Below, piece after piece: positions 37,400-41,988 of a stretch of 41,988 nucleotides of DNA. Each line of letters starts with the position of its first letter. Positions within the stretch are counted from its first letter, which is position 1. Below the pieces are notes generated by a model. The model searched no databases, was not told where the DNA came from, and saw nothing but the letters and a program-made list of their open reading frames with translations. Made by a program: the position numbers and the translations under genes. The DNA is from an uncultured Pseudomonadota bacterium. Its GTDB lineage: Bacteria; Pseudomonadota; Alphaproteobacteria; UBA9219. Location: NCBI GenBank assembly GCA_903919315.1, contig CAIXHP010000047.1:1-41988 (forward strand), in the 5' to 3' direction.

Positions 37400-37476
<77 letters not shown>

Positions 37477-37569: not shown

Positions 37570-37667
37570 GCAAGAGGGCGAAAGTCGCTTCCAAATTCTG
37601 GCGGCTGGCGGGTATATTTTTGAAGCGATTTTTGTGCCTCCAACTGTTTTTCGATTTCTGCATCATC

Positions 37668-38141
37668 ATGACTTCTCCCCTCGACGAAACTCTCCTTCAG
37701 GAAAAACTCCGCAAGATCGAAGCCCTGTTCGCAGGTGCCGCGACGGCGGGCGAGAAAGCTGCTGCCGGAGCCGCCGCCGAGCGGATCAAGGCGCGGCTGC
37801 GCGAGACGGGAAGGCGCGAGCAAGCCGAAGAGCTGAAGGTCAGCATCAGCGACCCGTGGTCGCGGCGTTTGTTCGTGGCGCTCTGTCGTCGCTATGACCT
37901 GCGCCCCTACCGCTATCCCCGCATGCATCGGCAGAGCCTGATCGTGAAAATGCCACGCTCGTTCTTCGACGATGTGCTGTGGCCTGAATTCAAACAGATC
38001 AACGAAGCCCTGACCGAGCATCTTGCCTCAATCACCGACCGCATTATCAAAGACTCTGTGTTCAGCGATGTCGGCGAAGCTGAAGAGAAAGCGGAGCCAC
38101 GCGCATTAACTGGCTTACCAGTCAAAGCACGCCTAGCTTGA
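37668..38141 (+). CDS. DUF2786-like protein
   Basis: 157 residues. The N-terminal segment QEKLRKIEALFAGAATAGEKAAAGAAAERIKARL has the helix pattern of DUF2786 domains (KIraLLakA...EAaaA..kAqrL). The middle (PWSRRLFVALCRRYDLRPYRY, IVKMPRSFFDDVLWPEFKQI) is unrecognised. The C-terminus carries EHLASITDRIIKDSVFSDV, repeated almost unchanged in the small ORF at 41343. Function unknown; DUF2786 proteins often occur in phages and mobile elements. Its last nine bases overlap the end of the convergent HEPN/Toprim gene. ATG 37668 has no clear ribosome binding site; the frame opens at 37620. Confidence 0.6.
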   Translation: MTSPLDETLLQEKLRKIEALFAGAATAGEKAAAGAAAERIKARLRETGRREQAEELKVSISDPWSRRLFVALCRRYDLRPYRYPRMHRQSLIVKMPRSFFDDVLWPEFKQINEALTEHLASITDRIIKDSVFSDVGEAEEKAEPRALTGLPVKARLA

Positions 38142-39428
38142 GCCTAAATCAGCCAATGCTTTTTCTGCTATTGAAGTGCACTCTGTGACCAGCGCATCCA
38201 AAACCTTGCGGATTTTGCTTGTGTCATACTCGCCAGTCTCGATGCTCTTAGGGGTTTGTCTTAAAAACACTTTTGTGTAGGCCTCCTTATCGGCCAGCGC
38301 CCCATGATAGCGATCAAGGTCTTTTTTATAATTCGTCCAGGTCACTAAAGGGGATGCCCCTTCTACAGATGCCATATCTAAATAGCATTCAATAGCCGCA
38401 GCGCATCCATTGATGTCCGCATCGGATATTCCTTGCGGGCCACGGGTGGAAAATGTACGAAACTGTTTCAGTTCCGGAAGTGTGGTGGCTCGCATGTTTG
38501 GTGGCAACGAAATCTTGTTTATGCGTCGGAAAGCGTCGCAACCTTCCGCATCGTTATCGAACAGAAAAACGACCTGATTGTGCACGTCAATTTTAGCGAG
38601 TCCTTCTGCAAATTTTACCAAGCTTCCTGCTCCTGAGAATGGGTGGCTCTCTTCCACATCAATGAAGCGAAAAAAGTCATTTATTTCTGGGCGCAGAATT
38701 GAAATTGCGTGTTTAAGAATGTGCACGTCTGAACTGCCCTCGGTGGCAATGAGGAATGTCTGCGGTCGTCTGGCGTGTGGGACAAACTCAGTTTCTTTGG
38801 CCCAGCCGTTCTCCACCAATGGGCCGTATTGCCACACAACATCAGCCTCTTTGTTTTGTTTGTTTTCGGCAAGCAAGCGCAAGACGGAATACGGATGAAG
38901 AAAGCCCAAAAGATTCCCAAAATAACTACGTTCAGAGTAACCGTTAGCTTGCTCATATAACGAAGGGTGGGGAATCCGCTGTATGGATCTGTCACCAGAA
39001 AATCGTCCTTTAATCTGCTCGTCGCTCTTCTCGCCATCGTAGACATTGTCCAATGTTTCGACAGGCTGTGATGTGACAAAGGCACAAAATTCCTCGAAGC
39101 TCATTATGTCTTGTGGCGTCACCGTATCGTCATCACGATCTTCCTCCTTACATATCTCGACCGCTCTCAGATATTCCAGCTTGGCTTGATCTCGCGTGAA
39201 TCCAAGCAGATCCAACCGAGGCAAGACGTTCTTAAGTTTTCGGACAAACCCCATTTCCATTGATGCGGGATCTTCGTTGTTCTCCTCGAAATACTCATAA
39301 TTGAATTGGTCAGAATGAATGCGTTTTCGGTCCGCGTACTGAAATAGTGCGCCGTGATCTGCTCCTCTGGAATTTTTACTCCAGTCAAGGGTCATTCCAG
39401 CAATTTCAAGCGTTATTTCGGTTCCCAT
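38133..39428 (-). CDS. HEPN/Toprim-domain protein, probable defence effector
   Basis: 431 residues. The N-terminus (EITLEIAGMTLDWSKNSRG, ALFQYADR) fits the HEPN/Toprim-associated N-terminal domain. A Toprim fold follows: Glu230-Gly-x2-Asp234 in LIATEGSSDVHIL and the metal-binding Asp291-Asn-Asp293 in VVFLFDNDAEG. Toprim domains of this kind act as nucleases or topoisomerase-like enzymes and this architecture is associated with bacterial defence loci. Between them is a charged linker (EICKEEDRDDDTVTP). ATG 39428 is preferred to the frame opening at 39506 because similarity begins there. AT-richer than the core genome. It lies 126 bases behind hipA on the same strand and could share its transcript. 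Confidence 0.7.
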   Translation of the reverse strand: MGTEITLEIAGMTLDWSKNSRGADHGALFQYADRKRIHSDQFNYEYFEENNEDPASMEMGFVRKLKNVLPRLDLLGFTRDQAKLEYLRAVEICKEEDRDDDTVTPQDIMSFEEFCAFVTSQPVETLDNVYDGEKSDEQIKGRFSGDRSIQRIPHPSLYEQANGYSERSYFGNLLGFLHPYSVLRLLAENKQNKEADVVWQYGPLVENGWAKETEFVPHARRPQTFLIATEGSSDVHILKHAISILRPEINDFFRFIDVEESHPFSGAGSLVKFAEGLAKIDVHNQVVFLFDNDAEGCDAFRRINKISLPPNMRATTLPELKQFRTFSTRGPQGISDADINGCAAAIECYLDMASVEGASPLVTWTNYKKDLDRYHGALADKEAYTKVFLRQTPKSIETGEYDTSKIRKVLDALVTECTSIAEKALADLGSS

Positions 39429-39496
39429 ATGAGCCGCCTTTTGATTAGCTAAACAAGGACGCCTATTTCTGGCGGACAAATCGCTCATTTCCCCCG

Positions 39497-39523
39497 ATGA
39501 TCGCATTTGGAAGCACCGAGGAA
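39497..39523 (+). repeat. Imperfect direct repeat, right copy
   Basis: ATGATCG-CATTTGGAAGCAC-CGAGGAAT, the partner of 37542-37569, in the gap between hipA and the HEPN/Toprim gene. Confidence 0.55.
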
Positions 39524-39554: not shown

Positions 39555-40829
39555 TCAACGATCTTCTATTCTGAACCCCTCATAAACAAAAGCTCCGGCA
39601 ATGGCTGCACAATCGCGCTCGGAAACGCCTTCGGCGCGGGCGGTTTTATACCACGCGGTTTTGATCATGTTTTCCATCGTGTCGATGATCGCCGTCGCTT
39701 CGTCTTGGTTGAGGAGAAACCGTGCGCTTTGAGACAGCAGATTATGGGCGTTGGCAAATCGTCCCTCATCGCCGCAGCTCATCGCCAGATCGCGCCGTTC
39801 AAGGCTGATCGGCACCGATGGCGTTAAATCGTAGGCGGGAGAAAGTTGCCAATCCTTGGCTCTGGCGATGATCGCGTGGTTGCGCGGATGATCGTCCGTG
39901 TTGGAAATCAGCGCGTTGAAAACCATGCGCTGGAAAAGTTCAGCGGCGTCTCGCTCAGGATCCGCGCTGACGCGACGCAGGTCTTCGGCAAGCGCGACAT
40001 ACGACCATTTCTCGCGCGAACGATGCGTGTCTTCGGCGCGCAGCAGCGTCAGCGCGCTGACCATGCGCGCGCGGCGGTAGCCCCCCTCCACTTTCTCGCG
40101 GTCAAAGCGTTTGACCAGAAGAACATCCTTGCCGCCCACATCGACCACTTTGCTTTCCGCCGCGACAAGACCGCAGGCGCGCGCCAGAACCAGCATGGCA
40201 TGTTCTATCCGCGCATTGTTCCAGGGATCGTCGGCACGGTTGAATTTGGCGATCCAAAGACCGCCCTCATCTTCGACCACAGCCTTGGGCCTCGCGCCAC
40301 CCATGGATGTGCCGATCAACAGCAAGTCTTTGATCTGCCTGTGGCTGGCGGTTGCGGGCAAATCTTCCTCGCGCATCATCGCCTCGGCAACCTGCTGAAG
40401 CTTTGCCAGATCAAGTGTGCGGTTGAAGTCACGTTTTGGCGCGGGCGGCGTTTGATGAAGGCCAAAACCAAGCGCACCGGCGCGGTCATCCGGCGCGTAG
40501 AGCAGATAGTCGAGTTCGCTGAGTTTTGGCTTACCCGCATGGCGTTCGATCACGCGCCTTCCCCAATAATCGGGGCTGGAGTCGCGTAACGCGCCGAACA
40601 CGCCGCCCAAAGCGGTGGTCTCGAAAGTGCCTGTTGCCAGTTTGAGTTCGACGGGATCAAGCGCCACCGCATCTCGACGCTCCAGATAGCTTTTGCCATA
40701 GACAAAGCGACCCAGCGCGATGCCGTGACGATCTTCCGTCATCGCAAACCGCCCCGCCGTCACCGGCTCCAGATGATCCGTCAATGTGATGTAGACATAG
40801 GCTTCGTGCGGTTGCGGCTTAGAAATCAT
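39555..40829 (-). CDS. hipA: HipA-family serine/threonine kinase toxin
   Basis: 424 residues. The kinase fold shows the glycine-rich GTSMGGARPKAVVE (173-186), LWIAKFNR with the ATP-binding Lys (195), LLVKRFDR, the catalytic loop SNTDDHPRNHAI (Asp312 as base, Asn317 for Mg) and the metal loop SPAYDLTPS (Asp334). The N-terminal HipA subdomain (GRFVYGKSYLERRDAVALDP, LGGVFGALRDSSPDYWGRRVIE) is present. HipA toxins phosphorylate targets such as glutamyl-tRNA synthetase and induce dormancy. It overlaps the antitoxin gene by 11 bases. Confidence 0.92.
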   Translation of the reverse strand: MISKPQPHEAYVYITLTDHLEPVTAGRFAMTEDRHGIALGRFVYGKSYLERRDAVALDPVELKLATGTFETTALGGVFGALRDSSPDYWGRRVIERHAGKPKLSELDYLLYAPDDRAGALGFGLHQTPPAPKRDFNRTLDLAKLQQVAEAMMREEDLPATASHRQIKDLLLIGTSMGGARPKAVVEDEGGLWIAKFNRADDPWNNARIEHAMLVLARACGLVAAESKVVDVGGKDVLLVKRFDREKVEGGYRRARMVSALTLLRAEDTHRSREKWSYVALAEDLRRVSADPERDAAELFQRMVFNALISNTDDHPRNHAIIARAKDWQLSPAYDLTPSVPISLERRDLAMSCGDEGRFANAHNLLSQSARFLLNQDEATAIIDTMENMIKTAWYKTARAEGVSERDCAAIAGAFVYEGFRIEDR

Positions 40830-41160
40830 TGTCGAGGCCTCCCACCGGATGCGCGCGTTCGCGGCCCTTAATCAGCGAAAGCGCCATGCCTTCCTTATCC
40901 TTGGCGGGATCCGCAACGTCATCCAACTGCGCCAACAAATCAACGGCCCACAACAAGGCGGCATAGGTGCCGATGCCTGTCGCTAGCTTGCCCTTTTCGG
41001 CATCGGCTATCGCGCGTGGGCCCGTGCCGATCTTCGCGGCCACGTCCTGAATGGTCAGATTGCGCCGCAGCCTGGCTGTGCGCAGGTTCGTCCCCAATCG
41101 CTTCAACGCCTGTTCCACAGCGTAAGGAGGCGTTTCCAAGAGTTTGTTTTTGCGCGCCAT
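40819..41160 (-). CDS. hipB: HipB-like XRE antitoxin
   Basis: 113 residues. The helix-turn-helix spans about 20-75: LGTNLRTARLRRNLTIQDVAAKIGTGPRAIADAEKGK. A short N-terminal extension and a C-terminal tail (ALSLIKGRERAHPVGGLDNDF) frame it; such tails in HipB carry the degradation or toxin-contact signal. It neutralises HipA and represses its own promoter, where three palindromes are visible. AAGG sits eight bases before ATG 41160; its last 11 bases overlap hipA. Confidence 0.88.
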   Translation of the reverse strand: MARKNKLLETPPYAVEQALKRLGTNLRTARLRRNLTIQDVAAKIGTGPRAIADAEKGKLATGIGTYAALLWAVDLLAQLDDVADPAKDKEGMALSLIKGRERAHPVGGLDNDF

Positions 41161-41195
41161 GACATGCCTTAAAAAGCTGGTTGCAGTTCATGATG

Positions 41196-41277
41196 TGCTT
41201 TATAAAGCAGAATCGTCGAATTGTCAAGAAAAATGCTATTTAAAGCGCATTAAGTAGCTGTACGCTTTATAAAGCGT
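41196..41277 (-). promoter_or_regulatory. Autoregulated hipBA promoter with three operators
   Basis: On the minus strand TTGACA (41227-41222), a 17-base spacer and TATAAA (41204-41199) form a near-perfect sigma-70 promoter. Operator 1, TGCTTTATAAAGCA (41196-41209), is a perfect palindrome covering the -10. Operator 3, ACGCTTTATAAAGCGT (41262-41277), is a perfect 16-base palindrome upstream. Between them GCTATTTAAAGC (41235-41246) is an imperfect copy. HipB is the obvious binder; occupancy of operator 1 would block polymerase. Confidence 0.85.
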
Positions 41278-41342
41278 TTCTATTGGATGATTTTGCCATA
41301 TAAATCAACGAGCATACTTTTCTCCTCCTTCAAGGGAGTGTT

Positions 41343-41546
41343 GTGACCGGAATCAAACAAGGCAACAAAGCGCTGATCGAGCATCTCGCCTCAATCACTG
41401 ATCGGATCATCAAGGATTCCGTTTTCAGCGATGTTGAGGAAGACGAGGAAAAAAGCGGAACCGCTTGCCATGACCAGGACGGGCTAATCGACATAAACCT
41501 AAAATCTTGCCCCAAACAATCCGCCGGTTTCATCTTCGTCAGTTAA
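41343..41546 (+). CDS. Small protein sharing the C-terminal motif of the DUF2786-like gene
   Basis: 67 residues from GTG 41343, with AAGGGAG a few bases upstream. Residues 10-36 (ALIEHLASITDRIIKDSV and FSDVEEDEEK) repeat the end of the protein at 37668; 19 residues in a row are identical. The rest (CHDQDGLIDINLKSCPKQ) is unrelated and its last bases run antisense to the DUF2326-like remnant, so the true functional part may be just the motif. Either a trimmed paralogue or a real small protein; synonymous divergence favours the latter. Confidence 0.45.
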   Translation: MTGIKQGNKALIEHLASITDRIIKDSVFSDVEEDEEKSGTACHDQDGLIDINLKSCPKQSAGFIFVS

Positions 41547-41696
41547 TCTGACGGGGAGAATGTGTTTCTTCAGATCGAACTCTTCTTGGAAACCTTCTTT
41601 AGGCACAGAATCTGAATTCATCGTCACAAGATACTGAAACCCCATTTTTTCACTGCACGCAGCTCCAATCTGTAATCTCTTGGTAGTTTGGGATCG
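41499..41696 (-). pseudogene. C-terminal remnant of a DUF2326-type protein
   Basis: The minus strand holds a 65-codon frame ending at TAG 41499, with an in-frame stop just upstream (41697-41699) and no start. It reads RLQIGAACSEKMGF, QYLVTMNSDSVP, then ILPVRLTDEDETGGLFGARF. The NSD segment and the closing TGGLFG-RF are, from memory, the end of DUF2326 proteins, SMC-like partners in ABC-three-component defence systems. The rest of the gene is missing, so this is a truncated relic. The remaining bases to 41904 hold nothing I can support. Confidence 0.5.
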
Positions 41697-41904
41697 TCAT
41701 GCTGACCGTGGGGGAAAATAGACTGAACACCGCTATGATTATGCACATGCACATCAGAATGGATAGGTCCGACGAGAAATCGCACAAATCCAACCACGCA
41801 CCCCCCAGATTAACCAATCGGAATTGTTAATAAAAACACTTAATCAGTAGACTCGTTGCGAAAGAGGCATTGAATCTTTGTTAACCGGCTTGTGATTCAA
41901 GGGT

Positions 41905-41927
41905 GGAGAGGCGTTGGAGGCCTCTCC
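41905..41927 (+). promoter_or_regulatory. Hairpin masking the transposase ribosome binding site
   Basis: GGAGAGGC (41905-41912) pairs with GCCTCTCC (41920-41927) around a 7-base loop; the likely Shine-Dalgarno GGAGG (41916-41920) is in the loop and stem. Structures like this limit transposase translation from outside transcripts. Confidence 0.5.
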
Positions 41928-41928
41928 G

Positions 41929-41988
41929 ATGGCAAAGTTTAATAGCGCGGCGCTTTTACGCAAGCGGCAATTTCAGCGCCTGACGGGC
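41929..41988 (+). mobile_element. 5' end of a probable DDE transposase (partial)
   Basis: ATG 41929 opens a frame that runs off the window after 20 codons. The visible residues include AALLRKRQFQRLTG; a short basic start followed by a FxxLTG block is typical of the N-terminal helix-turn-helix of IS5-like/DDE_Tnp_4 transposases. GGAGG lies nine bases upstream. Possible terminal inverted repeat sequence (ACTCGTTGCGAAA near 41852) could not be confirmed without the right end. Confidence 0.4.

Follow-up and report, generated by a model that had tools for sequence, protein, structure and literature searches.

A probable relic of an ABC-three-component ATPase gene in a tRNA-linked region of an uncultured alphaproteobacterium

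We analyzed a 41,988-nucleotide stretch of DNA from an uncultured Pseudomonadota bacterium (contig CAIXHP010000047.1 of assembly GCA_903919315.1, positions 1 to 41,988; hereafter "the window"). Toward its right end, the window carries a plus-strand tRNA-Met (CAT) gene (37400–37476) and an uncharacterised plus-strand gene (37665–38141) for which no Pfam or NCBIfam family was found. Three minus-strand genes follow, encoding a HEPN_Toprim_N domain protein (38133–39506; Pfam), a HipA family toxin (39555–40829; Pfam HipA_C, and PADLOC candidate PDC-M03A with E 2.8e-11 over residues 174–359), and an HTH antitoxin-like, HipB-like protein (40819–41160; Pfam and NCBIfam). The HEPN_Toprim_N protein shows no PADLOC match at E ≤ 0.01 and is uncommon, with matches in 3 of the 385 genomes of the class sample, its own included and one only in part. 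Repeat comparison revealed a truncated second copy of the 37665–38141 gene, consisting of its tail only, on the plus strand at 41344–41474. The two tails form a direct repeat of 101 bp (37990–38090 and 41353–41453; 78% identity) that encloses the HEPN/Toprim and HipBA genes. Convergent with the truncated copy lies the minus-strand gene remnant considered here (41499–41690), followed by 157 bp of other DNA (41691–41847) and by the left end of a multi-copy insertion sequence (IS) on the plus strand (41848–41988), which includes the start of a transposase frame and runs to the end of the contig.

The remnant lies in an open minus-strand frame of 65 codons (41696–41502), bounded by TGA at 41699–41697 and TAG at 41501–41499; a plus-strand reading from 41499 contains stops. 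In hmmscan, residues 3–65 of the translated frame match DUF2326 (PF10088) with 46.3 bits against a curated cut-off of 28.7 (E 4.3e-12), though the match covers only positions 77–141 of the 141-position profile. A sequence-only reading of this DNA, which named no strand, had proposed a DUF2326 relic of which only the gene's 3′ end is left, and had named a translated search against PF10088 as its check; both the proposal and the check are borne out, and the TGGLFGARF ending that it pointed to is seen in the minus-strand translation (...DETGGLFGARF) before the TAG. Its count of 65 remaining codons holds for the open frame, of which 63 codons (41690–41502) are homologous to the family. A whole-genome scan recovered the same place (E 6.3e-11) and no second DUF2326 match at E ≤ 0.001 elsewhere in the assembly (2.40 Mb, 70 contigs). 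In PADLOC, the remnant matches candidate PDC-M68B at positions 520–581 of 581 (E 4e-16), and NCBIfam gives it no family. That it is what remains of a gene from a known candidate defence family is well supported.

The closest relative of the remnant is a 585-amino-acid ABC-three-component (ABC-3C) ATPase from Phaeobacter inhibens plasmid pP54_d (WP_102877869.1; PADLOC PDC-M68B), with 62% identity over residues 523–585. This ATPase matches DUF2326, CTD10 and, below the cut-off, AAA_23 in Pfam, and genes for MC6 and a CTD10 protein lie upstream of its own gene. The order in intact relatives is CTD10 protein, MC6, ATPase, and the first two genes adjoin the ATPase gene in all six loci compared (L033–L038), one of which (L033) is the source of the query proteins. 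NCBIfam gave no family for any of the three P. inhibens proteins, no solved structure showed a sequence match to the remnant or to the full 585-residue ATPase, and "PDC-M68" does not appear in any of the eight papers that a literature search brought up. A review (PMC10586767) places ABC-3C in one superfamily with Lamassu. A tblastn search with the remnant returned 35 plasmid records, 34 of which include a place that covers 80% or more of the query. Among the best 20 of these 35 records, the gene at the match is annotated "ABC-three component system protein" in 15 and "DUF2326 domain-containing protein" in three, and two matches lie under no gene; gene lengths were seen for three of these 18 annotated genes. 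The remnant has matches in 7 of the 385 genomes sampled from the class, its own genome among them.

By our reading of its motifs, the P. inhibens ATPase carries Walker A at residue 39 and Walker B at residue 508, with a signature-like stretch at 479 between them; all three are N-terminal to the retained residues 523–585. Because Walker A and Walker B fall outside the retained part, the remnant, as far as its sequence predicts, cannot be a working ATPase. When the full 585-residue ATPase served as query against the assembly, with matches accepted up to E 1, only 41502–41693 was found. The CTD10 partner had no match in the genome, in a search that lacked a positive control there, and a search at E up to 1 of the window and of 58 short, partly overlapping loci from the same genome found neither it nor MC6. 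Thus, of the features that mark an ABC-3C/PDC-M68 system, neither an ATPase with both Walker motifs nor a CTD10 partner and MC6 in an operon is found here. Against a relic counts that neither a stop nor a frameshift interrupts the 63 codons, which thus show no strong decay. Identity to the P. inhibens gene at the three codon positions is 40, 52 and 20 of 63, and the sequence has therefore diverged as coding DNA.

ATPase homology ends at 41690, which places the break point at 41690/41691. By eye, a continuation of the ATPase upstream of this point in a shifted frame had seemed possible. We rejected this continuation by frameshift-tolerant alignment of 41847–41691 with the 118 residues that precede the retained part in three relatives: the scores were 22, 21 and 23, reached by 40, 47 and 30 of 60 shuffles, compared with 223, 207 and 193 for the true remnant. 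No full-length relative continues on the minus strand into these 157 bp, two plasmid DNA matches cover only query bases 15–83, that is, the remnant itself, and the 157 bp have no other match in the genome.

The IS left end that follows has 22 further copies in the assembly, with 96–100% identity over 135–145 bp. The window opens with the right end of the same IS, positions 1–141 and 41848–41988 being copies of one element. In each of the 22 left flanks examined, a single three-base target copy, ANT, stands beside the IS (another two strong left ends, on contigs C22 and C15, lie outside this set); this target copy may point to the ISL2 group of IS5. The copy at the right end of the window has AGT, which matches none of the 22 right ends found; these have ATT (12, including contig C37 and the window's own left end), AAT (8) or ACT (2), in a search that allowed one mismatch and could miss other flanks. 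Contig C37 also opens with the right end of this IS. A simple single IS insertion joining the right end of the window to C37 is not supported, because the target copies disagree (AGT versus ATT). With homology already over at 41690 and the IS beginning only at 41848, the IS does not lie at the break point and probably represents a separate event.

Beyond its IS end, C37 carries phage-type terminase, primase-like and integrase genes. About 1 kb from the integrase gene, the last 45 nucleotides of the tRNA-Met recur (L039, 9395–9439), and a paralogue of the 37665–38141 gene with 89% identity comes next; Rfam found nothing in the first 14 kb of C37. The repeated tRNA-Met 3′ piece is likely the attachment site of a prophage-like element, and the region resembles a mobile-element hotspot linked to a tRNA, in which cargo has accreted and broken. 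We also considered the 37665–38141 gene as a regular end gene of tRNA-linked elements and rejected this idea: none of its 28 relatives has a tRNA within 500 bp, and two have one anywhere in the stretch, according to ARAGORN, which would miss tRNA pieces. Queries for the ATPase, HipA, HEPN/Toprim, integrase and terminase found nothing in the 28 stretches around these relatives, many of which are short. In a further reading, which seems distinctly improbable, cargo docks serially at the tRNA-Met site and is exchanged through recombination within the repeated tail of the 37665–38141 gene, with defence modules (ABC-3C, and HEPN/Toprim with HipBA) replacing each other and the relic as discarded cargo. 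The defence island suggested by the sequence-only reading is partly supported: the adjoining HipA, HipB-like HTH and HEPN_Toprim_N genes strengthen it modestly, but the tRNA-Met and the IS copies typify mobile-element hotspots in general, and an island is not proven.

Overall, the stretch is very probably a non-functional relic comprising the last 63 codons, about a tenth, of a Rad50/SMC-like ATPase gene from an ABC-3C system of the PDC-M68B type. Recombination or deletion would have fused the 3′ end of this gene at 41690/41691 with unrelated DNA, and the element that now ends the contig would stem from a separate insertion of the IS at 41848. We infer the deletion itself, since neither an intact nor an empty version of the site was found. 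The earlier proposal that a defence-type gene stood here and was cut away accordingly stands as regards the candidate defence family (PDC-M68B, and ABC-3C within the Lamassu superfamily); for a complete gene at this site no intact-site relative was found, and the former presence of the whole system here is partly supported. It is possible, though on balance unlikely, that the fragment arrived already truncated, as a recombination passenger at the tRNA-Met hotspot, and that the complete system was never here. The remnant directly adjoins the truncated copy of another gene's tail in a region that is a patchwork of fragments, as such a passenger might, but no truncated donor was found: phage records gave no match, and none of 19 candidate stretches in viral contigs was confirmed. 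Moreover, the matches in the six other class genomes lie inside stop-to-stop frames of 611–701 codons, and 18 of the 20 plasmid matches listed fall under an annotated gene.

The remaining alternatives to a relic left by recombination or deletion fare worse. An assembly error at 41690 is very unlikely: the junction is close to the contig end, but a second assembly (G006, contig C236) of the same family, with a listed contamination of 9%, matches the window at 100% identity over 39852–41762, across the junction. This identity argues only weakly against an error, because the two assemblies may share a sample or organism. Slightly less credible still is an ATPase gene split by the IS, with its front part surviving on another contig. 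The contig does end inside the IS, and 19 of the 22 further left-end copies also reach the end of their contig; yet homology stops 157 bp short of the IS without resuming in another frame, and the full-length ATPase query recovered no front part in the assembly with E values of up to 1. The least credible alternative, a working small protein encoded by the 65-codon frame, could draw on the lack of an internal stop and on residue conservation: of 38 residues invariant among six close relatives the remnant retains 30, and of 10 invariant among eight (the relative in L031 being left out) it retains 9. Against it, the fragment represents just the final part of an ATPase, and under leave-one-out comparison the six relatives each retain 38 of 39–40 invariant residues and the remnant 30–31. 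These residue losses would fit a more distant ortholog, relaxed selection, or both.

We regard the remnant as the fossil of a candidate defence system, which the sequence-only reading recognised correctly; it is ordinary and of a family already known, and leaves the understanding of that family unchanged. To a modest degree it speaks for a passage of defence-type genes through this tRNA-linked region, followed by their loss. In intact Lamassu and ABC-3C systems, according to the same review (PMC10586767), the ATPase senses foreign DNA and trips an effector; by analogy, an intact version of the present system would do the same. The full-length P. inhibens relative matches a Lamassu LmuB profile weakly (E 8.4e-15 in PADLOC), whereas the remnant itself has no LmuB match at E ≤ 0.01. 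The P. inhibens ATPase differs from the remnant in being intact at 585 residues and in having a CTD10 protein, MC6 and a resolvase-type recombinase as neighbours; the two have in common the ending GGLFGxRF and the identity noted above over their last 63 residues.
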